Assembly: GCF_014863545.1 (NCBI RefSeq)
Contig: NZ_CP062260.1
Span: 3,038,001-3,102,000, forward strand
DNA length: 64,000 nt
Direction of reading: 5' to 3'
DNA from: Paenibacillus sp. JNUCC32
GTDB lineage: Bacteria; Bacillota; Bacilli; Paenibacillales; Paenibacillaceae
Shown: piece by piece, positions 1 to 11,840 of the stretch
Numbering within the stretch: position 1 is the first letter of the stretch
Layout of the letters: every line of letters starts with the position of its first letter
Made by a program: the position numbers and the translations under genes
The notes under the pieces: model-generated
Database searches by the model: none
Told to the model about the DNA's origin: nothing
Seen by the model: the letters and a program-made list of their open reading frames with translations, nothing else

Positions 1-446
1 ACCAAGGTGATATCCTTTTTCTTTTGGTACATGTGGTAGCCGAACGTCTTCCTAAGAGTATGGGTGCCGATATCCACGAGGCCAAACTCTTTGGCTGCTG
101 CCTTCATAATCTTATAGGCCATGTCCCTTTTAATCGGTTTATTCTTCCCGCCTTGCCTGGAGGGAAAGAGAACATCCTCCGGATTCATATTGGCGATGTA
201 CCTTTTTATCTCTCGCTTCAGTACCGGTGGAATCTTCATTATCTTTCGCTTCCCGGTCTTCATCTCTGTCATGACGAGATATTCGCCCATCACGTCTTTG
301 ACTTTAAACTTAAGCATGTCTTGGATACGCAAACCGGTATTAATGCCGAATACAAACAACATGTAATTCCGATGGGATTGTTGCATCAGGAAATCTTTAA
401 TCGCTTCAATCGTTTCTTGATCTCGTATCGGTTGAACAAAATTCAT
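1..446 (-). CDS. Short tyrosine recombinase, partial (runs off the left edge)
   Basis: Reading leftward from an ATG at 446, 148 codons stay open to the window edge. The product is the catalytic half of a tyrosine recombinase. It has the first catalytic Arg in NTGLR (residue 40), a Lys candidate in KTGK (residues 63-66) and the H-x-x-R box THTLRKTFGYH (His129, Arg132). The remaining His/Trp and the nucleophilic Tyr should lie just outside. A GAGGTG ribosome site precedes the start. There is no room for an N-terminal SAM-like DNA-binding domain, so this is the short, catalytic-domain-only type (about 190 aa) often seen between ArpU genes and terminase genes in Firmicutes prophages. It is not the element's main integrase, which lies at 10686-11840. 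Confidence 0.85.
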   Translation of the reverse strand, partial: MNFVQPIRDQETIEAIKDFLMQQSHRNYMLFVFGINTGLRIQDMLKFKVKDVMGEYLVMTEMKTGKRKIMKIPPVLKREIKRYIANMNPEDVLFPSRQGGKNKPIKRDMAYKIMKAAAKEFGLVDIGTHTLRKTFGYHMYQKKKDITL

Positions 447-722: not shown

Positions 723-749
723 TAAAAAAAGTCGCCTTTAAAGGCGACT
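723..749 (-). terminator. Rho-independent terminator of the three-gene unit
   Basis: A perfect palindrome AGTCGCCTTTAAAGGCGACT (730-749) overlaps the nuclease stop codon. On the minus strand it is followed by a T-run. Confidence 0.85.
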
Positions 750-1455
750 AGTCAACGTCATCATCCGAATTTTCTAATAAAGCAGGGTGTTTTTCCTTAA
801 GGAATTTATCGAAGTTTGTTTGGATTCTTAGTGCTTTCATTTTTGCATCAATAATCTCCAATAAACTCTTACCTTGCTCTATCGCTTTGAAATCCTTGAT
901 ATTGATATCGATAATATGTGTTCGATCCTCTAGTTTCTCCCTGAGTAAGAAAAGCTTCCTCGTTAACCCAGAAGCTGAACTCCAATTACTCCCCGCAAGG
1001 CCATAGTAAGAAAAAAGAAGACCAATTTTAGATTGATTTGAGGCAAGAAGTGTAAAGAACTTTCCAACCCATGTTACACCAATTTTTTTATTATAGTTCT
1101 TACATTCTGAGAGAAACATTTCCCCAGGAAGTGTAATAAATTTCTTCAGGTCTCTTCCGATGTGATTTAGCTCAAGCAGCTGGTCGATTTCATTGGTGGT
1201 GTTCCTTATATTCTCATACACGTTAAATATACTTGATTTTTCGAGAAGAAATGTCACCAAATGTTCAAGGGCTTTCCCCTTTTCTCCTGTAGTTGCTTTA
1301 CCTGATCCTTCATGTAGCTTAATTAGCTTTTCAAGAAGTACTTTATATTCATGTTCGTCTTTTTCATCAAGCCTTGTGATTTCTCTAAACCTCGTCTTCT
1401 CATCAGCATACTGACTTAAGAAATATTCTTTAATTGAAAGCCCGACATCACCCAT
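748..1455 (-). CDS. PD-(D/E)XK-type nuclease, restriction-endonuclease-like (unit gene 3)
   Basis: A 235-aa protein. The order GKALEHLV (Glu64), NEIDQLLEL (Asp91) and LSECKNY (Glu117-x-Lys119) matches the alpha-helix Glu, beta-hairpin Asp and E-x-K of the PD-(D/E)XK nuclease fold, as in Mrr-like enzymes. The C-terminal half is basic with no clear second domain. The start is taken as ATG 1455, with AAGGTGA 6 bp upstream, rather than the adjacent TTG at 1458. It overlaps the previous gene by 8 bp, which implies translational coupling. Substrate and specificity cannot be read from sequence. Nuclease fold is fairly sure; a role in defence is inferred from the fold, the position in a prophage and the isolated transcription unit. 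Confidence 0.7.
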   Translation of the reverse strand: MGDVGLSIKEYFLSQYADEKTRFREITRLDEKDEHEYKVLLEKLIKLHEGSGKATTGEKGKALEHLVTFLLEKSSIFNVYENIRNTTNEIDQLLELNHIGRDLKKFITLPGEMFLSECKNYNKKIGVTWVGKFFTLLASNQSKIGLLFSYYGLAGSNWSSASGLTRKLFLLREKLEDRTHIIDINIKDFKAIEQGKSLLEIIDAKMKALRIQTNFDKFLKEKHPALLENSDDDVD

Positions 1456-1819
1456 CAATGATCACCTTGTAAATAACTATGCTGTCTTTAATTGGATCTA
1501 ACTCAGTTATACATTCTTCACATTCAACATATTGTGGCAGCTGGTTAATCGTTTCGTATCCGATCCCTGTAAATCTCCTACAATTTCTACAATATAACTC
1601 GTAATGCGGTTTTATTATCCCCAGGTCTTTTACAGTTTCTAGAATGCCATAAACTTCACTCATTGGGATATCAAGATGCCTAATAATTGCACCTGGGTAA
1701 ATATAATCCCCTTTTTTATACGACTTGATCATCGAGAGTAAGCTCTCTAGCTTGCTCGGCGTTAGCTTTTTCGATTTTTCTAAGCTCTTTCTGATTTTTA
1801 ATAATATACTCGGTGACAT
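1448..1819 (-). CDS. Small winged-helix-like protein with a C-terminal zinc ribbon (unit gene 2)
   Basis: A 123-aa protein not recognised as a named family. Residues about 20-75 look like a winged helix (TPSKLESLLSMIKSY ... MSEVYGILETVKDLGII). Residues 77-103 carry two CxxC pairs (YCRNC, VECEEC) typical of a zinc ribbon. The start at ATG 1819 has a GGAGAAG ribosome site and gives a 104-bp overlap with the upstream gene. A later ATG at 1732 would cut the overlap to 17 bp but lacks a good site. It is probably a nucleic-acid-binding partner of the nuclease encoded next. Confidence 0.6.
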   Translation of the reverse strand: MSPSILLKIRKSLEKSKKLTPSKLESLLSMIKSYKKGDYIYPGAIIRHLDIPMSEVYGILETVKDLGIIKPHYELYCRNCRRFTGIGYETINQLPQYVECEECITELDPIKDSIVIYKVIIDG

Positions 1820-2882
1820 AATCCATCTTCTCCATCTCAGAATGACGACCATAATACTGTAAAATTGTATAATCTTCATCTGTGACACCGAACTTGAACT
1901 TCACTTTAGTCTTGTCGCTTTTCCAAACCAAAGTAATCCATGGTAAGTCCGCGAGCGTTTCGGTTTCAGTAACGAAGGTTTCAAGCAACTTTTTTATTTC
2001 TGGGCTATTATCAAAGAGTTCTTTATTAGCACTCATCAATTCCTTCAATTCACCGAGTAAAGGAAGAACGTAATTTTCATTGATTCCATTCTCAAGAATA
2101 GCTTTTCCACCTTTTTGGAAACTCATTGATTGAGCATCTACTACTACTTCTGGTTGTTTATTTTTTCTGATGTATTCAATAACCGGAGGAAAATTAACTG
2201 GTTTAAAGGAACATTGAAGTTTTTTTGCAAACCAATCTAAAACAGAGCCGATTTGCGATTCATAAAATAATTCAGATGGTCTAAACATCGCGCTCGCACT
2301 ATCTAATCGGACTTCAAGGATATTCATGTGTTTAAAATAAATACCCAGCATTGGGTACTTAATTTGCTTTTTTTCTCCCGATCCAGGAACATGACCACTC
2401 AGAACTTTACTAAACTTAAACATAAAGACATTACCAATCACAAAAAGGGTTGGCTTGGCAACGCCTTGTAATATATTGGTAGAGAAATCGTGTTTGTAAC
2501 TAGGACTTACAAAGTCGTTGATTTCCCCTTTATCTAGCAAGTCATTAATTAGATCTTCCTTTATTTGATTAACATGAAAAAATGCAGCGTATTTATACGA
2601 TTTATAGAATTCGTTCCGCTCAATATGCTTTACTGCTTTCTGTTCACGGTCAATAGCCAATGAAAGTCGATCAATCGTGCTTTCTACCTCTGATAGATCA
2701 AGGATGTCTTCGGATCGGGGTGTCTTTCTTTTTCTTAAAAGCAAAACCTCTCCCTTCTCCATATTCTTTAGCAAGCCGTCTTGTATATACTTTGGATATC
2801 CTTCAGATATCGTCGATGTTAATAACTTTTTGTAAGAGGACTCAGAATCATTAACATTTTCTGCTTCAAATATATCCGTCAT
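1716..2882 (-). CDS. Unrecognised 388-aa protein (unit gene 1)
   Basis: First gene of the three-gene unit. I do not recognise the family. The sequence is hydrophilic with no signal peptide or membrane span, has alternating helix/strand-like segments, and ends in a charged helix (KNQKELRKIEKANAEQAREL). The segment TLFVIGNVFMFKFSKVL is a buried beta-strand-like stretch. ATG 2882 is preferred to an ATG 21 bp upstream because AGGTGG lies 5 bp before it. Codon use is AT-rich compared with the phage replication genes, which suggests separate acquisition. It could be the sensor or effector of a defence system, but this is inference from context only. Confidence 0.6.
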   Translation of the reverse strand: MTDIFEAENVNDSESSYKKLLTSTISEGYPKYIQDGLLKNMEKGEVLLLRKRKTPRSEDILDLSEVESTIDRLSLAIDREQKAVKHIERNEFYKSYKYAAFFHVNQIKEDLINDLLDKGEINDFVSPSYKHDFSTNILQGVAKPTLFVIGNVFMFKFSKVLSGHVPGSGEKKQIKYPMLGIYFKHMNILEVRLDSASAMFRPSELFYESQIGSVLDWFAKKLQCSFKPVNFPPVIEYIRKNKQPEVVVDAQSMSFQKGGKAILENGINENYVLPLLGELKELMSANKELFDNSPEIKKLLETFVTETETLADLPWITLVWKSDKTKVKFKFGVTDEDYTILQYYGRHSEMEKMDYVTEYIIKNQKELRKIEKANAEQARELTLDDQVV

Positions 2883-2935
2883 ATAGACCACCTGTTTTAT
2901 CATTTTGGGTAATTCTTCCTAAAATAATAACACAG

Positions 2936-2962
2936 ATTATAGAAATAGGAACCCTTTATCAA
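2936..2962 (-). promoter_or_regulatory. Promoter of the three-gene unit
   Basis: On the minus strand TTGATA (2957-2962) is followed after 15 bp by a perfect TATAAT (2936-2941), about 55 bp before the first start codon. The spacer is short. The -35 box overlaps the 3' end of the preceding small gene, so the unit can be transcribed independently of the phage late operon. Confidence 0.6.
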
Positions 2963-3129
2963 AAAGTTTTGGGGAGATAGAAAAAACAGTCACGTTTTTT
3001 AGTAGCTATACTATCCCTCTGGCATTCTTTTCGGATACAAGTTTGCTTAGTGCCGGTCCAGGCCCCCCACTCACAGCCTCTGCATTTCTCGGGCTGTTGG
3101 AACATTGATTCGTCTTGGTTCGGCTTCAT
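2959..3129 (-). CDS. Small cysteine-rich phage protein (56 aa)
   Basis: The ATG at 3129 is preceded by AAGGAG at 7 bp. The product has CRGCEW, then Cys in QTCIRKEC and a final Cys in RDCFFY, a spacing compatible with a single zinc site. An upstream extension of the frame to 3351 runs through the hairpin region and has no ribosome site, so it is rejected. Function unknown; such mini zinc proteins are common in phage late or early-late regions. Confidence 0.65.
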   Translation of the reverse strand: MKPNQDESMFQQPEKCRGCEWGAWTGTKQTCIRKECQRDSIATKKRDCFFYLPKTF

Positions 3130-3149: not shown

Positions 3150-3393
3150 TATTAAGGCCTTGATAGGATTCGAACCTATCTAATCCTTGAAGGCCATGAA
3201 GAATCCGTACTTCTATCCCGCCCGGATGGAGCGGTTTCGGGGCATCGAACCCCACCTCACACCGAACCCCTGACGATGAACGTCTAAGGATGATTCGTTC
3301 CATCCCACAGCGCGGCCGAGTTCCTACCGCGATAACGGGCAGTAGGCACACCGGAGAGGTTGAACTCCTCTCTATGTGCCTACTGTATAGCTA
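3150..3393 (-). other. Hairpin-rich leader with three TTCRA-loop hairpins
   Basis: Downstream of the ArpU gene there is no convincing ORF, but three strong hairpins are visible on the minus strand. Hairpin 1 (3340-3385) has outer arms CAGTAGGCACA/TGTGCCTACTG and inner arms GAGAGG/CCTCTC closing a 7-nt AGTTCAA loop. Hairpin 2 (3239-3253) is GGGG-TTCGATG-CCCC. Hairpin 3 (3162-3180) is GATAGG-TTCGAAT-CCTATC inside an outer GGCCTT/AAGGCC stem (3156-3195). Loops 2 and 3 look like tRNA T-loops, but no complete cloverleaf can be built. It may be the 5' leader of the phage late transcript. Confidence 0.5.
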
Positions 3394-3448
3394 ATCAACC
3401 GCCACTTTGGCGTCAAACCGCCGTCATTACTGCGTCAGTTAACCGTCA
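3394..3448 (-). promoter_or_regulatory. Five tandem 11-bp repeats, candidate ArpU operator
   Basis: On the minus strand the hexamers TGACGG, TGACGC, TGACGG, TGACGC and TGGCGG start at 3448, 3437, 3426, 3415 and 3404, exactly 11 bp apart. This is one helical turn, so all lie on the same DNA face. The first two overlap the end of the ArpU gene, and a TATACA -10-like hexamer follows the last. ArpU/RinA-type regulators activate late promoters near their own gene, so this is a natural activator binding array. The repeat is seen; the binding protein is inferred. Confidence 0.6.
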
Positions 3449-3846
3449 CTTTTTCCGATGATTCCGCATAGCTTCAAATGTTCCGCAATCGTATCCACAC
3501 CGACCCCTATTCGGCGATCAATCGTTTTTTCACTGCGCCCATGCTCCGACCAGAAAGCATCTATCGTTCCAGAATATTTAACACCTTTGATGTACCTGTG
3601 TTCAAAAATCCTTTTTACTTCTTCATCTATAATCAGCCCAACAGCAACATTAATTTCATCTAATATCCGACCGCCTTCATTTAAAACTTTCTGCTGCTGG
3701 GGCGTTAAACTTTCTGGATCTCTCCGCCTCACATCATTAACCTGACGGGAAAACTTTGGATAGTTGGTCAATAGCTTTTTTACAGTTTTACGTTCGGCTT
3801 CTGTCACGCTCGGGTATATTTCCATTTGAATCACCGTTGCCCCCAT
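3439..3846 (-). CDS. ArpU-type phage late transcription regulator
   Basis: A 135-aa protein with the layout of ArpU/RinA-like phage regulators. It has an N-terminal YPSVTEAERKTVKKLL segment, a middle SLTPQQQKVL ... DEEVKRIFEHRYI helix pair resembling a sigma-like region, and a C-terminal helix-turn-helix around GRSEKTIDRRIGVGVDTIAEHL. ATG 3846 follows AAAGGAG at 6 bp. In prophages this protein switches on packaging and lysis genes. Here it is the last gene of the early/middle operon, and a phased repeat array lies at its 3' end, fitting control of the promoter just downstream. Confidence 0.75.
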   Translation of the reverse strand: MGATVIQMEIYPSVTEAERKTVKKLLTNYPKFSRQVNDVRRRDPESLTPQQQKVLNEGGRILDEINVAVGLIIDEEVKRIFEHRYIKGVKYSGTIDAFWSEHGRSEKTIDRRIGVGVDTIAEHLKLCGIIGKSDG

Positions 3847-3868
3847 ACTTGGCTCCTTTCTTTCATAT

Positions 3869-4069
3869 TCATGATTTGGCCTCTCCCAACGCATGTTGAG
3901 CAAACGTTTCAGCTTTGGACCATCGGATCTGGCCTTCGCTTCCTTTACGATCAATCGGTATATAACCCGCTGACAATATTCCTTCTTTGACTTCTATTTT
4001 CTCAAGCCGGCGCAACAAACCGTTTCGATATACGTATGTTCGACCAGTCTTTAATTTATCGATCCTCAT
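3869..4069 (-). CDS. Small phage protein of unknown function (66 aa)
   Basis: ATG 4069 has AAGGAGG 7 bp upstream. The protein is basic (MRIDKLKTGRTYVYRNGLLRRLEKIEV). No motif is recognised. It lies 1 bp after the preceding gene and 22 bp before the ArpU gene, inside the leftward phage operon. Confidence 0.6.
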   Translation of the reverse strand: MRIDKLKTGRTYVYRNGLLRRLEKIEVKEGILSAGYIPIDRKGSEGQIRWSKAETFAQHALGEAKS

Positions 4070-5254: not shown

Positions 5255-6801
5255 ACGGCAACCTCCTGGCGGCTATTTAGTTTGATTCTGGATTTTTTCT
5301 TTTTTGTAAGCTTCTCTTTAACGAATGCTTTAACGAAGGCGACAACTTCATGAGTCATATCGTTGTTCTTGAACCCCCTGCATTGGACAATCTTGCCCTT
5401 TTGAATCTCCAAGGTGTAAAACGGCTTGTCCGGTTCCTCTGCCTTTCGGATAAAGAAAATATCGCAGTACCCTGTCGCGTATCTTTCCGAATATCTGCCC
5501 ACACAATGTTTAAGCATTTTACCTTCGTCAAAGAGTTCAATCGTTGATTCTGCTGGTCGTAAAATGAGACCATACTTTTCAAATCGGAATGATTCAAGAA
5601 TCGAAACTCGTTTAGCGACTTTCTTGTTCAACGCTTCATCCGCTTTCATTTTGATCTGTTTCCTCAACTTGTCATGCGCTTCATGAAGATCGTTCGGGAA
5701 TAGATTTCTATCCTCCCTGATATCGATATTCAATTCCAGGCAATCTAAGCGGTAATCTCGCCAATCCGTGATAACATTCGCTGCACGCTTATAGTGATCA
5801 CCATGATTCCGTATCTGCTTTAACACGTATTTGTAAATTGCTTTCTCGGTAGTCAACCTGAGTAGCTCTTTAAGATAGTCCTGGTAGATCGGCATTTCAA
5901 GATCCGCCGCCAATATCGACTCTACCACCCCTAACCCCATGTCCTTTTTTCGATTTTTTTGATAAGTTCTCAGTGCCTGAGGGGATACTTCCAAACCTGA
6001 CTTGCGGATCTCGTTCAATTCCGCTTTGTTCAGCCTGAGTACATCGAATATCGTTTTCCCATTCCAATTGATTGCACCATATGTTTTATCTCTGTAGAGC
6101 TTGGCCCACACCATGGAGGAAAATCCGGATTTGGTCAGGTATTCGATGCAAGGATAACGTGCAGCTAAGTCGAAAAACTCGGTCATATCGCTGATGTATG
6201 CACCGTTGTCGTACTTGGTGTACTGCTCCCAAGTGCAGTATTGAAACGGCGTGCCCTGTACAGCTTGGCGAATGTTTTTCACGGACATATGCTTCTTCCA
6301 ACTTCCATACTTATATTCCCCATCAAATGCCGAACGTAGCTTTTTAGGCTGTTTCATTGAGTAGCTAAAATAGGTGCTGTTTCCCGATTGAAACAAGTAC
6401 ATATGACTGGAATTGTATTTGGTGATCACTTCTTTGAAGTCACCGCTATAATCCCGATAGACGCTAATCACCCTGGCCGTTATGGCTTGGTTGTCTTGCA
6501 CAGACTTTTCGTACCAGACCAGCACCGCAGTATCACACATGAATTTTCTGCCGATCCCCGCCGACCGGACGCCACACTTGGATTTACAGTTCAGACATAT
6601 AGCAAGTTCTACTTGCTTGTGACGCAATCTCTCCAATGGGCGATGTTGCTTTTTGCAATGTGTACAATAAGCAAACTGCACCTTTGCGACCGTTTTAATA
6701 AACAAGTACCGGCTTTCCTTAAAAACGTTGTCTGTCACATACCGTTCCAACTGAGCGCTGATCTTCTCCGGGAAATGGGCTTTGAATTCTTCATATTTCA
6801 T
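5251..6801 (-). CDS. PcfJ-domain protein
   Basis: A 516-aa protein. A four-cysteine zinc-binding segment (YCTHCKKQH ... ICLNCKSKC) lies near residues 45-80. The C-terminal third holds the PcfJ signature (ELFDEGKMLKHCVGRY, FYTLEIQKGKIVQCRG). The lysine-rich tail could bind nucleic acid. ATG 6801 has GAGGTG 6 bp upstream; two ATGs just before it would place that site too close. PcfJ-like genes occur on conjugative plasmids, ICEs and prophages, usually beside PcfK-like genes, as here (10-bp gap). The biochemical activity is unknown. Confidence 0.8.
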   Translation of the reverse strand: MKYEEFKAHFPEKISAQLERYVTDNVFKESRYLFIKTVAKVQFAYCTHCKKQHRPLERLRHKQVELAICLNCKSKCGVRSAGIGRKFMCDTAVLVWYEKSVQDNQAITARVISVYRDYSGDFKEVITKYNSSHMYLFQSGNSTYFSYSMKQPKKLRSAFDGEYKYGSWKKHMSVKNIRQAVQGTPFQYCTWEQYTKYDNGAYISDMTEFFDLAARYPCIEYLTKSGFSSMVWAKLYRDKTYGAINWNGKTIFDVLRLNKAELNEIRKSGLEVSPQALRTYQKNRKKDMGLGVVESILAADLEMPIYQDYLKELLRLTTEKAIYKYVLKQIRNHGDHYKRAANVITDWRDYRLDCLELNIDIREDRNLFPNDLHEAHDKLRKQIKMKADEALNKKVAKRVSILESFRFEKYGLILRPAESTIELFDEGKMLKHCVGRYSERYATGYCDIFFIRKAEEPDKPFYTLEIQKGKIVQCRGFKNNDMTHEVVAFVKAFVKEKLTKKKKSRIKLNSRQEVAV

Positions 6802-6811
6802 CGCCATCACC

Positions 6812-7156
6812 TCACATGAAGTCGTCAAGCTTCACATCGAATCGTGAAACTTCCGGCTCTGGTTGAATGGTTTGCACGGCTTGGACAGGTTGCCCGTCGA
6901 TCTCGAAGTATTTCAAGACAATTGCATAGCCTTCAGCATCTGTTAACATGGCCATGCCGTTTGATTGTTTCTTTTTTGCTTCGTTTTTCATAGCTTCCAA
7001 GCTCTTGGCAATGCTCTTGCCTTTATCCAGAATCTTCTCCGCGCATTCTGGATGGGCTTGTACATGTTGAATCAAAAAATTTCCGATTACCTGGATGTAT
7101 GGATTGCTCTGGCTGCCTGTGATCTCGTCTTGCAGTTTCTTCACTGCTTGTTCCAT
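6812..7156 (-). CDS. PcfK-like protein, AcrIIA9-related family
   Basis: A 114-aa protein. The pattern NPYIQVIGNFLIQHV ... EKILDKGKSIAKSLEAM ... NGMAMLTDAEGYAIVLKYFEI is that of the PcfK-like family, to which the Cas9 inhibitor AcrIIA9 belongs. It is small and helical, with an acidic C-terminus (VKLDDFM). It is directly upstream of pcfJ in the same operon. Membership is judged by memory of the family pattern. Whether it inhibits any CRISPR effector cannot be told, since many members are simply annotated as PcfK-like. Confidence 0.75.
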   Translation of the reverse strand: MEQAVKKLQDEITGSQSNPYIQVIGNFLIQHVQAHPECAEKILDKGKSIAKSLEAMKNEAKKKQSNGMAMLTDAEGYAIVLKYFEIDGQPVQAVQTIQPEPEVSRFDVKLDDFM

Positions 7157-7162
7157 CTCAGT

Positions 7163-7522
7163 TCACCCTTTCGATTTATCTCTAACTCCATCGCCTCTTC
7201 GGCGTTTAAGCACTCGTAATTCCAGCTCGTTCACTTTGCTTATATCGATCTGCTCTATGAACCTGGGCCATATCGGCACATATCGGTAACTGCTGAGTTC
7301 GCTCGAGCAATATACGTATGCAGCTGGCTTTTCCTTTTCACCTACTGGACAACCTAATTGAGTGCAACGTGTGTACGTCAGCAAAATGTCTGCAACCGGT
7401 TCAGGAGCGCTCACCCATTTACCTTCCCACACCCATTTGCCGTCGATTTCGACCTGTCGAGGTATGAGGCATGGCATTCTGGACGCTTGCGCCTGAGCTT
7501 TGTTCAGCCATAACCTACGCAT
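7163..7522 (-). CDS. Phage hypothetical protein (119 aa)
   Basis: ATG 7522 overlaps the stop of the replication gene (ATGCGTAG). The sequence includes the aromatic segment DGKWVWEGKWV, a Cys pair in TRCTQLGC and a strongly basic tail (LKRRRGDGVRDKSKG). No family is recognised. It is probably co-expressed with the replication protein. Confidence 0.6.
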   Translation of the reverse strand: MRRLWLNKAQAQASRMPCLIPRQVEIDGKWVWEGKWVSAPEPVADILLTYTRCTQLGCPVGEKEKPAAYVYCSSELSSYRYVPIWPRFIEQIDISKVNELELRVLKRRRGDGVRDKSKG

Positions 7523-8429
7523 CTGGTTTATCCGACATCTGACGAGCAAACTCCATCATCTCGGCCATTTGTTCATCAGTTATATGATTGTCAGGTGGCG
7601 GTTCGTTAGTCATGATTGGAATTGACGGTTTGCCTGATTTACTTTGGGAGCCTGTCCGTTTCTTTGGCTGCTCCTTCGTCCAAGGTTCATCAATCCCCTC
7701 AGCTTTCCAGTTCTTTAAAATGCCTTCTACGTAGGATATCTTTCGTTTACCGGCTACTACAGATCGCTTCATTGCCTCACATATCCAACGTTCACCGTAT
7801 GTAATCAACATGTCGTCGATCTGGTCTTTGATCACAGGACTAATGGTCCCGAAGCCTTCATTTTCAAACATTCTATAAGGATTCATTTCAAACTCAGGAC
7901 GACTACTACCGACTGGATTGATCGGGTTTGGTTCTGTTGGTTGTTGTTCGGTTTGGTATGGTTGGTTAGGTTCGGTTATGTTGTGTTGGTTGTGTTGGTT
8001 AGGTAGCCCCGTGACTCCTTCATTCGTCACGGTTGTGTCACGCGCGACGAATGCGTGACGGTCATCTGATTGTTTAGCCTTTTCCCGTGACTTTCGTTTC
8101 CGTTGAGTGTTTTGCTCTCGTTTTTCAATGAGTCGGCCAGCATAATTAAACCAGTCATGTATCAGAAGATGTCCGTTGTCCTGATCGATGAACCTTGCAT
8201 CTGTAAGCACGGAGAGCAATTGATCGGCATCACCCTCCCACTGCATGGCATCTGCGATATCATCAGGTTCAAACTTTGTTAAATCACCATCTGGGGCATA
8301 GTCCATGGCCCAATACCAAAGCAAATGAAGAAGTCCGACCATAGTAGGAATAGATACCTTAAGCTTACGAGCACATCTTTTGGTTTTAGGGTGTCCGGGT
8401 AAAGACTGGTGACTTTCTATCCACGCCAA
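7515..8429 (-). CDS. DnaD-type phage replication initiator / replisome organiser
   Basis: A 304-aa protein. The N-terminal winged-helix region (MAWIESHQSLPGHPKTKRCARKL is partly visible; then GLLHLLWYWAMDYAPDGDL) is typical of phage replisome organisers. The middle is a low-complexity Asn/Gln/Pro linker (about 140-180). The C-terminal part (about 195-245, ending YVEGILKNWKAEGI) is the DnaD helical domain that contacts DNA and recruits the helicase loader. The start is TTG 8429 with AAGGAGGT upstream; no ATG fits. Repeats resembling origin iterons lie inside and just upstream of the gene. Confidence 0.8.
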   Translation of the reverse strand: MAWIESHQSLPGHPKTKRCARKLKVSIPTMVGLLHLLWYWAMDYAPDGDLTKFEPDDIADAMQWEGDADQLLSVLTDARFIDQDNGHLLIHDWFNYAGRLIEKREQNTQRKRKSREKAKQSDDRHAFVARDTTVTNEGVTGLPNQHNQHNITEPNQPYQTEQQPTEPNPINPVGSSRPEFEMNPYRMFENEGFGTISPVIKDQIDDMLITYGERWICEAMKRSVVAGKRKISYVEGILKNWKAEGIDEPWTKEQPKKRTGSQSKSGKPSIPIMTNEPPPDNHITDEQMAEMMEFARQMSDKPDA

Positions 8430-8522
8430 AAACGTGACCTCCTTCCGTCTGCTGCTGCATGTATCTGTGACATGCTCTTGTTGTCACGGCTATGTCACGT
8501 GTGACGGATGCGTGACATAGCC
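8010..8522. repeat. CGTGAC/GTCACG repeat cluster, candidate phage replication origin
   Basis: The hexamer CGTGAC or its complement occurs at 8010, 8025 (as CGTCACG), 8037, 8054, 8086, 8433, 8483, 8494 and 8511, with near matches between. About 0.25 would be expected by chance in this span. One group lies inside the replication gene over the linker codons and one just upstream of it. Initiator-gene-internal or adjacent iterons are the usual origin layout of theta-replicating Firmicutes phages. Confidence 0.55.
8488..8522. repeat. 12-bp perfect inverted repeat in the candidate origin
   Basis: GGCTATGTCACG (8488-8499) and its exact complement CGTGACATAGCC (8511-8522) flank an 11-bp spacer that itself contains GTGACG. 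It could be an initiator or repressor site, or a hairpin in the leader of the replication gene. Confidence 0.75.
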
Positions 8523-8551
8523 TAGTAAATCCTGAATAATTTCACGACGAC

Positions 8552-8650
8552 TTGTTGAGCCATCTCAAATTTGGTATAATCGATGTACAAAATTTTTAAA
8601 AAGTTCCGACTTAGATCACGTTTCCCAGACGTGATCTTTGTTCTTTTTTG
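8552..8650 (+). ncRNA. Candidate small antisense RNA with its own promoter and terminator
   Basis: On the plus strand, against all surrounding genes, TTGTTG (8552-8557) is followed after 17 bp by an extended -10 TGGTATAAT (TATAAT 8575-8580). About 30 bp later a hairpin AGATCACG/CGTGATCT (8613-8637) is followed by TTTGTTCTTTTTT. The predicted RNA is about 60 nt. It overlaps the 3' end of the 80-aa gene at 8611 and lies beside the repeat cluster. Nothing shows that it is expressed. Confidence 0.45.
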
Positions 8651-8853
8651 GGTATTCTATTGCATGGCTCCGGTTCTTCCGCCGGATCAATGCGCAACAA
8701 AGTCCCTTTTAGTGACCTGATTCTTTGATCCAATGAAATCATTAATTTAAGATCTTTAGCGGCTTCCGCCTCCATAAATTCGCGGTATAGAGAGTTGAGT
8801 TCTTTCCTGATCGAGCGGCGTTTCTTGTCCCTACTAGAAAATACATCCTTCAA
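8611..8853 (-). CDS. Phage hypothetical protein, coiled-coil (80 aa)
   Basis: The start is TTG 8853, overlapping the previous stop (TTGA) with AAAGGAGG upstream. The N-terminus is very basic (SSRDKKRRSIRKELNSLYRE) and is followed by a heptad-like helix. No known family is recognised. It is the last gene before the candidate origin. Confidence 0.55.
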   Translation of the reverse strand: MKDVFSSRDKKRRSIRKELNSLYREFMEAEAAKDLKLMISLDQRIRSLKGTLLRIDPAEEPEPCNRIPKKEQRSRLGNVI

Positions 8854-9038
8854 GATTCTGCCTCCTTTCTCCGTAACTCTGCTTCCAACCTGGCGGCCTC
8901 ATTGCTCATCAGGTCAAAGCCAGCATCATTCAACAAATGTCCATGAATTAATAACTTACGGATTTCATTCAGCCTAGAAGTTGCAGCACATCGTTGTTCT
9001 AAACGCTCAGGAGACAATTTATTTGCCCCCTTGCTCAT
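8850..9038 (-). CDS. Phage hypothetical protein (62 aa)
   Basis: ATG 9038 (MSKGANKLSPERLEQ) is chosen over an in-frame ATG further upstream, which would overlap the preceding gene by 77 bp. The ribosome site is weak, so coupling to the preceding gene (20-bp overlap) is likely. The product is a helical charged protein of unknown role. Confidence 0.5.
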   Translation of the reverse strand: MSKGANKLSPERLEQRCAATSRLNEIRKLLIHGHLLNDAGFDLMSNEAARLEAELRRKEAES

Positions 9039-9297
9039 AAAGCCAATGTTGTAAAAACTCTCTCGTTTCACGAACTGGAAAATACCACTTTCCACCGATT
9101 TTCACCTTAGGGAACCGCTTATCATTAAAAAAGTTATCCTGAATGGTATTCCAGCTCATGCATGTCCGTTTTTTTAATTCTGAGGAATCCCAAAAGACAT
9201 ATTCGGCATCAATTTCTTTAATTAACTCCGTTATACGTTCTCTGCATAGCTTCTTTACCTCCGATTCATCTATATTGATTTCGAGTAATCCGTTCAT
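9019..9297 (-). CDS. DUF771-like helix-turn-helix phage protein (92 aa)
   Basis: The second half, SSELKKRTCMSWNTIQDNFFN followed by FPKVKIGGKWYFPVRETREFL, has the excisionase-like winged-helix pattern of DUF771 phage proteins. It lies one base after the small XRE gene at the head of the leftward operon. A role as excisionase or early regulator is plausible. Confidence 0.65.
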   Translation of the reverse strand: MNGLLEINIDESEVKKLCRERITELIKEIDAEYVFWDSSELKKRTCMSWNTIQDNFFNDKRFPKVKIGGKWYFPVRETREFLQHWLYEQGGK

Positions 9298-9298
9298 T

Positions 9299-9508
9299 TC
9301 AATTCCTCTCCTTTATCTTGGGTAACACTCTGAACTCCAGATCCAGAGCGTCACAAATTTTATTTAGTGTTGTTTCATTCCATCTTCTGCTGCCATTGAG
9401 CAAGTTGTGCATATACTGTGGCGAACAACCTATTAAATGAGCCAGCTCTGATGGATTAAGCCCTTTACTATCGATAATCGGTTTTACTTGTTCTGAAATA
9501 CTCATCAT
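9299..9508 (-). CDS. Small XRE-family regulator, Cro-like (69 aa)
   Basis: The protein is one helix-turn-helix: LNPSELAHLIGCSPQYMHNLLNGSRRW. AAGGAGGTGAT precedes the ATG. It is transcribed away from the larger repressor at 9737 across an operator-rich 228-bp gap, the position of Cro in a lysogeny switch. Confidence 0.8.
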   Translation of the reverse strand: MMSISEQVKPIIDSKGLNPSELAHLIGCSPQYMHNLLNGSRRWNETTLNKICDALDLEFRVLPKIKERN

Positions 9509-9530
9509 TAATCACCTCCTTGTTTAAATA

Positions 9531-9694
9531 TTAATCTAATAGATTAATATAATCAAACGAAAAATTAATCAAATAGATGCATTTTCAAGCATTTTCCTTT
9601 ATTAATCCTATTGTTTAATTTATTTGCTCATTTTTTCGTCCATTTGCTCCATTTTTAATCTATTTGATGTTTGTTTATTAATCTATTTGTTGAT
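9531..9694. promoter_or_regulatory. Lysogeny switch: five TTAATC operator sites
   Basis: Related sites start at 9531 (TTAATCTAATAGATTAA, a perfect 17-bp palindrome), 9565 (TTAATCAAATAGAT), 9602 (TTAATCCTATTGTTTAA), 9655 (TTAATCTATTTGATG) and 9678 (TTAATCTATTTGTTG). They lie between the divergent regulators. A TATAAT (9699-9704) adjoins the last site in front of the rightward repressor gene. Both XRE proteins are candidate binders. Confidence 0.7.
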
Positions 9695-9736
9695 AATATA
9701 TAATCATCAATTAGTTTAAAGGGGTTTTGGAAAATC

Positions 9737-10189
9737 ATGCCTGGTTATCCCAATAGAATAAGAGAGCTAAGAAAACTCAAGGATATTAGCGGTGTGGATG
9801 TTGCCGAATATCTTGGAATTACTCCACAATACTTATACAACCTAGAAAAAGGAACACGATCTTTGAGTACAGAAATAGCATCTAAGTTAGCTGAATACTT
9901 CAATGTATCAGTTGATTATCTTTTAGGTCGATCAGTTGAGAAATCGTCAGAATCAAACCCATTAGAAATTCCAGAATGGGCTTCTGCAAAAGACATAGCT
10001 GACTTCAAAAAAATGCTTGAGGATGATAAACCTGTCATGTTTGATGGGGTTCCCATTGAGGGCGAAAAACGTCAACGAGTGTTGGATGTTTTAACGGGGC
10101 TGTTTTGGGAGGCAAAAGAATTAAACAAAGAAACTTACGGTAGAAAGAACAACAAAACTAAAGACACCTCAAACGACAACAAAGAGTAG
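9737..10189 (+). CDS. XRE-family phage repressor, CI-like (150 aa)
   Basis: The N-terminal helix-turn-helix spans residues 7-65 (ELRKLKDISGVDVAEYLGITPQYLYNLEKG is only partly quoted; key element DVAEYLGITPQYLYNLEKG). The C-terminal part is acidic and helical with no LexA-like Ser/Lys protease residues, so inactivation is not by self-cleavage. The following ImmA/IrrE gene, 10 bp downstream, is the likely anti-repressor protease, as for ImmR/ImmA in ICEBs1. Confidence 0.85.
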   Translation: MPGYPNRIRELRKLKDISGVDVAEYLGITPQYLYNLEKGTRSLSTEIASKLAEYFNVSVDYLLGRSVEKSSESNPLEIPEWASAKDIADFKKMLEDDKPVMFDGVPIEGEKRQRVLDVLTGLFWEAKELNKETYGRKNNKTKDTSNDNKE

Positions 10190-10199
10190 GTGGTTCAGT

Positions 10200-10610
10200 T
10201 TGGATACTACTATTCATAAACTTGTACGAAAGTTTAAGACAAATGACCCCTTCGAGATTGCCAAAGGATTGAATATTCTGATTCGATATGCAGAGTTTGA
10301 TGAAGGTACACGAGGACTATACTACCGAAAGCTAAGGCGAAGGTTTATCGTAATTCACAACGGTTTAGACGAGCAATGGCAAAAGGTAGTTTGTGCTCAT
10401 GAACTCGGGCACGATAGGTTACACCCAGGCATAAGCCGTTTCTGGCTTGATGAGCACACCTTTTTTAACGCCGGAAAATTTGAAAAACAAGCTAATGTTT
10501 TTGCACTGAAACTCCTTACCTATTCGACTAACCAAAACGAAGATGAATCCTTAGAAAATTATCTTCTTCGTTGTGGTATTCCAAAAGAACTTCATAACCT
10601 CTATTCATAA
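10200..10610 (+). CDS. ImmA/IrrE-family metallopeptidase
   Basis: A 136-aa protein with the zinc motif HELGH (His67, Glu68, His71) and a downstream metal-ligand helix near FEKQANVFALKLL. The start is a TTG at 10200 with AGGTGG upstream. Family members cleave the partner XRE repressor after DNA damage or cell signalling and so induce the element. The tandem position after the repressor supports that role. Confidence 0.85.
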   Translation: MDTTIHKLVRKFKTNDPFEIAKGLNILIRYAEFDEGTRGLYYRKLRRRFIVIHNGLDEQWQKVVCAHELGHDRLHPGISRFWLDEHTFFNAGKFEKQANVFALKLLTYSTNQNEDESLENYLLRCGIPKELHNLYS

Positions 10611-10685
10611 CCTTGCGCTTTCACCGCTGCAAGGCGGTTTAACATACATATTAAGGGGAACTGGCGTTCCTATGGAGGGAATTGA

Positions 10686-11840
10686 ATGGCAAATTTCAAG
10701 AAACACAGTACAGGCTGGGAATACCGAGTGAAATATAAAGATCCCTTCACTCAGAAATTCAGAGAAAAATCACAAAGAGGTTTCCTCACAAAAAAAGAAG
10801 CGCAGTTGGCTGCTGCTGATTTTGAGAAGAAAATCAATGAAGGTTTTGAACAGACCGATGATATTGAATTATCTACTTTTCTCCAAAATTGGCTTAAAGA
10901 ATACAAGGAGGGGACTATTAGGAAAAACACGTTGATTTTGCATCAGAATAACATTGATAATCACATCGTTCCATATTTCAAACAAATTAGAATTAAAGAC
11001 ATCAAACCAATTATGTATCAGAAATTTCTAAACTCCTTAACAGAAAGCAACTACAGTAAAAGAACTGTTGAATTGGTTCATGCCACAATGCATAATGCTA
11101 TGGAAAAGGCTGTTACTCTTTGCAAAATCGAAAAAAATCCTTGTAATGGAGTAACCATCAAAGGACATAAAAAGGAACAATCTGTACAATTCATTGAATC
11201 TTGTGATATTCCCAAATTTCTACAATCTGCTCATCAGTATGGGTACATCTATTGGATTTTCTTTAAAGTGCTTATTGAGACTGGAATGCGAAAAGGTGAA
11301 GCAGCAGCGTTGCAATGGACAGACATTGATTTCAAGAATCAAACTATTAATATTAGTAAAACCCTTGATTTTAGTGCTAAAGAAAATGAGAGCCTATTCG
11401 GGGATACAAAAACTTTTAATTCAAAAAGAACAATACGAATGAGCAAGTCACTTGTAAACGATCTGAAGTATCATCTGAATTATCAAAATCAAAACAAGCT
11501 AGCACTAAATAATGTTTACAGACACGATCTCAACCTAGTTCTTTGTAAAGATGATGGAAAATTCATTCCTAAGTCTTCACTCTTTAATTCATTCTCAAGA
11601 ATCCTAAAGCGCGCAGGCATACCCAGCATGCCAATACACGGTCTTAGACATACACATGCTGTACTAATGCTTGAATCTGGAGTTGATATGAAATATGTCC
11701 AGGAACGTTTAGGTCACGGAAGTATACAAATAACCTCTGATATTTACGCTCACATCTCCAAAAAAATCGAAACAGACAACATGGAGAAATACGAGAAGAA
11801 TAATAATTTCGGGGGCATTTCGGGGGTGAAACAAGAATAG
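10686..11840 (+). CDS. Tyrosine-type site-specific integrase
   Basis: A 384-aa full-length integrase. It has an N-terminal AP2-like arm-binding region (WEYRVKYKDPFTQKFREKS), a SAM-like core-binding domain (about 62-150) and a catalytic domain with Arg202 (ETGMRKGE), Lys242 (GDTKT), His318-x-x-Arg321 (HGLRHTH), His344 (LGHGS) and Tyr354 (IYAHIS). All key residues are present. The gene ends at the element border facing glnA, the usual attP-proximal position. A duplicated TTTCGGGGG lies in its last codons. Confidence 0.92.
   Translation: MANFKKHSTGWEYRVKYKDPFTQKFREKSQRGFLTKKEAQLAAADFEKKINEGFEQTDDIELSTFLQNWLKEYKEGTIRKNTLILHQNNIDNHIVPYFKQIRIKDIKPIMYQKFLNSLTESNYSKRTVELVHATMHNAMEKAVTLCKIEKNPCNGVTIKGHKKEQSVQFIESCDIPKFLQSAHQYGYIYWIFFKVLIETGMRKGEAAALQWTDIDFKNQTINISKTLDFSAKENESLFGDTKTFNSKRTIRMSKSLVNDLKYHLNYQNQNKLALNNVYRHDLNLVLCKDDGKFIPKSSLFNSFSRILKRAGIPSMPIHGLRHTHAVLMLESGVDMKYVQERLGHGSIQITSDIYAHISKKIETDNMEKYEKNNNFGGISGVKQE

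Follow-up and report, generated by a model that had tools for sequence, protein, structure and literature searches.

Classical Mrr is a single protein, and nucleases of this type (PF04471) have the motif order G..E / D / ExK. The protein encoded by the third gene (C) of a three-gene cassette in a prophage of Paenibacillus sp. JNUCC32 shares this motif order, but it differs from Mrr-type nucleases in having two constant partners, encoded by genes A and B, and in having no solved homologue by sequence, as a search of the PDB gave no match. We refer to the whole 64,000-nucleotide stretch of DNA that was analysed as the window, and to other loci by number (L001 and so on). The window proteins A, B, and C match phrog_17559 (E = 2.2e-25), phrog_18087 (E = 1.4e-4), and phrog_18586 (E = 2.7e-22), all labelled as unknown function, and C also matches phrog_6350, which carries the same label. 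None of the three window proteins matches PADLOC 2023, and A has no match in Pfam or NCBIfam either. The PADLOC scan of relatives covered those of A and C; no fitting system was found, with weak single matches for A and the generic PD_DExK model matching 2 of 15 relatives of C (best E = 5.3e-5). The original prediction that the trio can be matched to no named system holds: PADLOC 2023, Pfam, and NCBIfam yielded none for the window proteins, nor did PADLOC for the relatives of A and C. A search of the open literature without preprints found no description of the trio.

Two candidate relatives of A were rejected. For Kiwa KwaB, a defence protein similar in size to A, comparison of the A profile with five KwaB proteins gave a probability of 0.5%. 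Among 17 A members, a single one matched PD-Lambda-4_A (E = 0.0016), and the profile probability was 0.1%; PD-lambda-4 homologues exceed 900 aa, compared to 388 aa in A, and an excerpt of one paper lists PD-lambda-4 as a P-loop NTPase (PMC10952713).

The three genes lie on the minus strand with the two coding overlaps that had been predicted (Table 1). An alternative in-frame ATG upstream of the start of A gives a protein of 395 aa instead of 388. The neighbours named in the prediction, an ArpU late regulator and a short recombinase, are confirmed by PHROG matches. The first of these matches phrog_21810 (E = 1.9e-22), labelled as unknown function, and phrog_248, a transcriptional activator (E = 2.8e-4); we take it to be ArpU-like, and the matched profiles carry other labels. 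The second, a tyrosine recombinase of 181 aa at full length, matches phrog_216, integrase, at E = 7.7e-51 and is followed by terminase-like genes, judged by eye from ORF translations. No tRNA genes were found within the window. Four TGACG repeats with 11 bp spacing, seen by eye, lie at 3411–3448 on the minus strand. They span the end of the ArpU-like gene, just ahead of the EAR RNA discussed below, and may be sites at which the late regulator binds. A small CxxC protein starting MKPNQDESMFQQPEKCRGCEWG is encoded after EAR at 2959–3129 on the minus strand, and a similar protein follows EAR in prophage L011, both again seen by eye.

Table 1. Coordinates of the trio, its candidate regulatory elements, and its neighbours in the window.
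Feature	Position	Strand	Remarks
Gene A	1716..2882	-	388 aa; ORF; phrog_17559; AlphaFold model
Gene B	1448..1819	-	123 aa; probable winged helix and CxxC...CxxC; phrog_18087
Gene C	748..1455	-	235 aa; well-supported Mrr-like PD-(D/E)XK nuclease by sequence; phrog_18586, phrog_6350
A/B coding overlap	1716..1819	-	104 nt; measured
B/C overlap	1448..1455	-	8 nt; measured
ArpU-like late regulator	3439..3954	-	PHROG profile matches
181-aa tyrosine recombinase, N-terminal part	1..446	-	remainder beyond the left edge of the window; L079 3902-4447
EAR / epsC RNA (RF01735)	3239..3353	-	85.7 bits; between ArpU-like gene and trio
Cassette	723..2970	-	homologous to P. faecalis copy L001 (90% DNA identity); 729-2958 homologous to prophage L011 (89%)
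Promoter region	2924..2962	-	predicted TTGATA-N15-TATAAT (2962-2936) and better conserved TGTGTTATTAT (2934-2924)
Inverted repeat ATTTTAGG-N8-CCCAAAAT	2902..2925	-	one mismatch; possible operator
Intrinsic terminator 3' of trio	730..749	-	hairpin and following run

The recurrence of A, B, and C in the same order is far beyond chance. Searches of genomes, phage records, and IMG/VR with A or C supplied the loci, and scans with profiles of all three proteins found them in one order at 50 of 51 loci; the remaining one (L049, genome G451) was rejected as an sbcC gene matched by chance. The 50 loci include repeats of single contigs and comprise 29 that are distinct by contig name plus the Henu2 record, and some are cut by contig or locus ends. 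L064, among further loci outside the 51, also carries the trio. All 21 loci retrieved with C as query have A and B as well, and a survey with phrog_6350 for relatives of C with other partners gave 2 of 101 genomes, namely that of the window itself and one whose weak match contains an internal stop. The overlaps are retained among copies at 25–35% identity: with some start codons chosen by hand, A and B overlap by 38–110 nt in all 18 loci measured, and B and C by 4–20 nt in 17 of these, the exception being L046. A is shorter in L026/L037. The pairwise distances in 15 loci are strongly correlated (A–B 0.947, A–C 0.966, B–C 0.957), with none of 2000 permutations as high in each case. Because the permutations ignore relatedness, this indicates joint descent rather than contact, and correlations of this kind are also expected for three genes that are merely inherited jointly in related hosts. 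The proposal of a self-contained cargo unit is strongly supported by the 50 loci, the conserved overlaps, and a block of homology that runs from promoter to hairpin, and homologues of A and B do co-occur with the nuclease.

At the level of sequence, the assignment of C as an Mrr-like PD-(D/E)XK nuclease is well supported. All 15 members match Mrr_cat at E values up to 1, the best being 3.4e-7, and the window protein alone scores 16.5 bits against a Pfam cut-off of 21. Nine positions are invariant in the 15 aligned proteins (G60, E64, R84, E89, D91, E117, K119, Y121, and K132), and they include the four catalytic residues E64, D91, E117, and K119, in agreement with the prediction that the motifs Glu64, Asp91, and Glu117-x-Lys119 are intact. 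The description of B as a winged-helix/zinc-ribbon protein finds support in weak FUR-type winged-helix matches in 7 of 17 members (best E = 0.001), weak zinc-ribbon matches in a few of the 17, and weak matches to PDB chains of ribosomal eS25 (E = 0.011), FUR (E = 0.018), and a zinc finger. Cysteines 77, 80, 100, and 103 are all present in 12 of 17 aligned members; L015, L016, and L017 have three of the four, L047 has one, and the Staphylococcus copy L021 none. As all four are absent from L021, zinc is not essential to the B family. For A, profile scans of 17 relatives gave scattered weak matches only, and comparison with the PDB by sequence gave nothing useful. The AlphaFold model (17 sequences, mean pLDDT 79.8, pTM 0.77) predicts an alpha/beta protein with N-terminal helices, long strands at 145–193, helices at 206–240 and 276–310, strands at 315–344, and a C-terminal helix at 350–387 that is mostly encoded within the A/B overlap.

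These assignments bear on a modification-dependent, type IV-like restriction system, in which A and B would recognize modified phage DNA and C would cut it. The Mrr_cat match in all members of C and a cassette without a methylase both agree with such a system, but A, B, and C gave no match to an NTPase or modification-reader domain, and the single-protein composition of classical Mrr also speaks against it. We regard this explanation as decidedly unlikely.

The cassette is found at different places in different phages. The stretches homologous to L001 and L011 start at the promoter region and stop at the terminator hairpin, with different flanks; the homology to L011 also includes a short stretch of the recombinase, and there the trio lies on the opposite side of the recombinase compared to the window. 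Judged by eye from ORFs, with names partly borne out by profiles, the trio precedes a recombinase or terminase in the window, L011, L014, L016, and L036. By the same kind of inspection, L034 and L064 have a repressor-like gene and an integrase close to the trio, and L008, L013, and L017 have lysis-like genes close to it. In the Staphylococcus phages Henu2 and SAP71 it is located between endolysin and integrase, the interval in which Staphylococcus phages keep conversion genes. No phage gene was recognized by eye in the ORF translations flanking the trio in L001 and L054, and no known defence gene was found beside the trio. The surroundings of the L001 trio (5356–11587) contain, by eye, genes for an HNH-ended secreted protein, an SMI1-like protein, a HicB-like antitoxin, and IS3-like transposases. 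Five prophages of the genus (L116, L118, L119, L120, and L133) have ArpU, EAR, and the recombinase with a gap of 269–318 nt between EAR and recombinase, compared to 2792 nt in the window, and a search of their genomes with A found nothing. No clean empty site flanked on both sides could be identified: on the EAR side, the DNA shared with relatives that lack the trio extends to ~3150, but the 450–730 stretch is not shared.

A nuclease carried as cargo could also be addictive, counter-defensive, or useful to the phage itself. The last of these, a function of the trio in packaging, recombination, or late regulation, would be consistent with its location in the window between a late regulator and terminase-like genes. 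We consider it very unlikely, since the five prophages have the same ArpU–EAR–recombinase arrangement in genomes without A, the position of the trio varies, and two copies have flanks without recognized phage genes. No profile match assigns A, B, or C to structural or packaging functions.

The trio had been predicted to have a TATAAT promoter of its own. The motif pair is present, with TTGATA at 2962–2957 and TATAAT at 2941–2936; its 15-nt spacer keeps it off the list of a standard promoter scan, which allows spacers of 16–18 nt. At the same stringency, the window contains two matches on both strands, compared to 0.45 per strand, or ~0.9 in total, in mononucleotide shuffles. The pair alone is therefore not beyond chance, and its TTGATA half is not conserved in relatives. 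The adjacent TGTGTTATTAT is conserved in the window, L001, L008, L011, L012, and L013, and the copies without it have different AT-rich stretches at the same place. The inverted repeat ATTTTAGG-N8-CCCAAAAT is a possible operator; it has one mismatch in the window, L001, and L011, and is perfect in L012 and L013, and the scan found none in L008. At the other end, the predicted perfect hairpin terminator is present, with the hairpin AGTCGCCTTTAAAGGCGACT followed by TTTTTTATTT. L011 retains the hairpin and has lost the T run, and it has another terminator-like site ~110 nt past C. In L014 no terminator was seen 3' of C within the scanned stretch.

This arrangement also recalls an addiction module, with C as a DNase toxin that A and/or B restrain; a cell losing the prophage would then die, and any phage resistance would be a side effect. 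The genes overlap and are probably translationally coupled, the nuclease comes last in the operon behind a possible operator repeat at the promoter, and C is fragmented in two loci (L045 and L046, where it is in two pieces). No known antitoxin family was matched in Pfam or NCBIfam, however, and a 388-aa first gene is unusual in such modules. Addiction is unlikely in our estimation, and together with type IV restriction it is the next reading after defence. A nuclease for counter-defence or host takeover during infection seems most improbable: the nuclease is phage-borne and read-through of the late operon could express the trio late as well, but the trio seems to own a promoter, and the two copies in flanks without recognized phage genes do not fit such a role.

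The distribution of the trio is sparse. It is present in 7 of 50,697 phage records, all from Staphylococcus (queries A and C, with the same seven found by three divergent queries), and in none of 72,556 plasmid records searched with A and one C. Including the window's own genome, it was found in 4 of 100 genomes of the genus Paenibacillus and in 5 of 392 of the order. The class gave 3 of 398, one of them the SbcC chance match, and the sample of the phylum 1 of 398, which is the window's own genome.

Defence against other phages best fits a nuclease cargo that is sparse, position-independent, and self-expressed. We therefore lean, if only slightly, towards the trio being an undescribed anti-phage nuclease system expressed in the lysogen. 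Weighing against this reading are the failure to find a fitting PADLOC model or a known defence gene beside the trio, its absence from the plasmid records searched, the broken C in L045 and L046 and short A in L026, and the copies in which the terminator is incomplete or was not seen. It would be a mobile, self-contained cassette of three components, transcribed in the lysogen from its own promoter, and its targets would most likely be other phages or mobile DNA, i.e. superinfection exclusion. The long coding overlap and correlated divergence suggest that A and B may form a complex. B would bind nucleic acid, perhaps its own operator, and A may be a sensor or specificity subunit. The A–B complex would recruit or release C, leading to DNA cleavage in response to foreign DNA or a phage trigger. 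The cassette encodes no methylase, so self-DNA must be spared, either because activation is conditional or because the target that is recognized is modified or structured, and constitutive cutting of unmodified DNA is unlikely.

The RNA upstream of the trio belongs to a family whose original paper is said to be that of Irnov and Winkler in 2010. In the excerpts of the literature considered here, EAR is an RNA element of the eps operon (PMC11658703; PMC10653937), in which it antiterminates distal and foreign terminators (PMC7858274). The window RNA matches the covariance model of this Bacillales element over its full length, with a gathering cut-off of 42 bits, and sits 85 nt downstream of the ArpU-like gene. 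It thus follows a phage late regulator, whereas the published copies, within the same excerpts, are located in the eps operon, and no report of EAR in phages was found in the open literature without preprints.

EAR is also present in the trio loci L014 and L011 and absent from the seven other trio loci scanned with Rfam alongside them. The survey of the genus gave 61 EAR matches in 38 of 100 genomes, two of the 61 being under the cut-off. Flanks were inspected for all 61, with 1.5 kb only for 20 of them. An ArpU relative lies upstream on the same strand in 14 (the window, L111–L120, L130, L133, and L137), including L130, whose EAR is under the cut-off at 41.5 bits, and L114, in which ArpU is ~1.6 kb from EAR. 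The other 47 have no relative of the phage reference set in their flanks. Sixteen phage copies share a predicted fold, and 12 of 29 pairs are changed on both sides. A pattern built from the phage copies, and biased to them, matches 30 stretches in 28 viral contigs, some of which are already counted above (L011, L014). An ArpU relative is found at most 600 nt upstream in 21 of the 30 and within ~2 kb in every one of the 26 whose upstream sequence is 600 nt or longer, and relatives of recombinase, HNH, or terminase genes follow downstream in 18 of the 30. All 18 stretches rescanned with Rfam are above the cut-off. A blastn search for EAR in the 50,697 phage records gave no match. A second EAR copy in the window's genome (G000:C1:6798291-6798411; L080, L141) scores 101.8 bits and has no adjoining phage reference gene. 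Viral contig L168 contains a Pistol ribozyme at 87–157 on the plus strand (55.4 bits).

The position of EAR predicts that late transcription from near ArpU passes EAR, the trio, and the terminator at 749–730 before it reaches the recombinase and terminase-like genes. Polymerase modified by EAR would continue past the terminators of cargo cassettes, so that a defence cassette could have a promoter and terminator of its own and still stand at the head of a late operon, leaving the terminase and capsid genes unblocked. Judging from the position of EAR, the ArpU–EAR phages may antiterminate their late operons with EAR in this way. The full proposal combines an undescribed three-component anti-phage nuclease system with a prophage from a large phage group that drives its late operon with a host-type EAR placed right after an ArpU-like regulator, with read-through accommodating terminated cargo. 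We put this forward tentatively, as possible rather than probable.

Should the trio prove to be a defence system, the known prophage cargo of Paenibacillus and Staphylococcus would gain a compact type that is based on a nuclease and has an unfamiliar first component. The link to EAR suggests a testable explanation of how terminated cargo can be tolerated by phages within their long late operons. It also suggests that an RNA described, in the excerpts cited above, for polysaccharide operons may have a second life in phages, or may have begun there.
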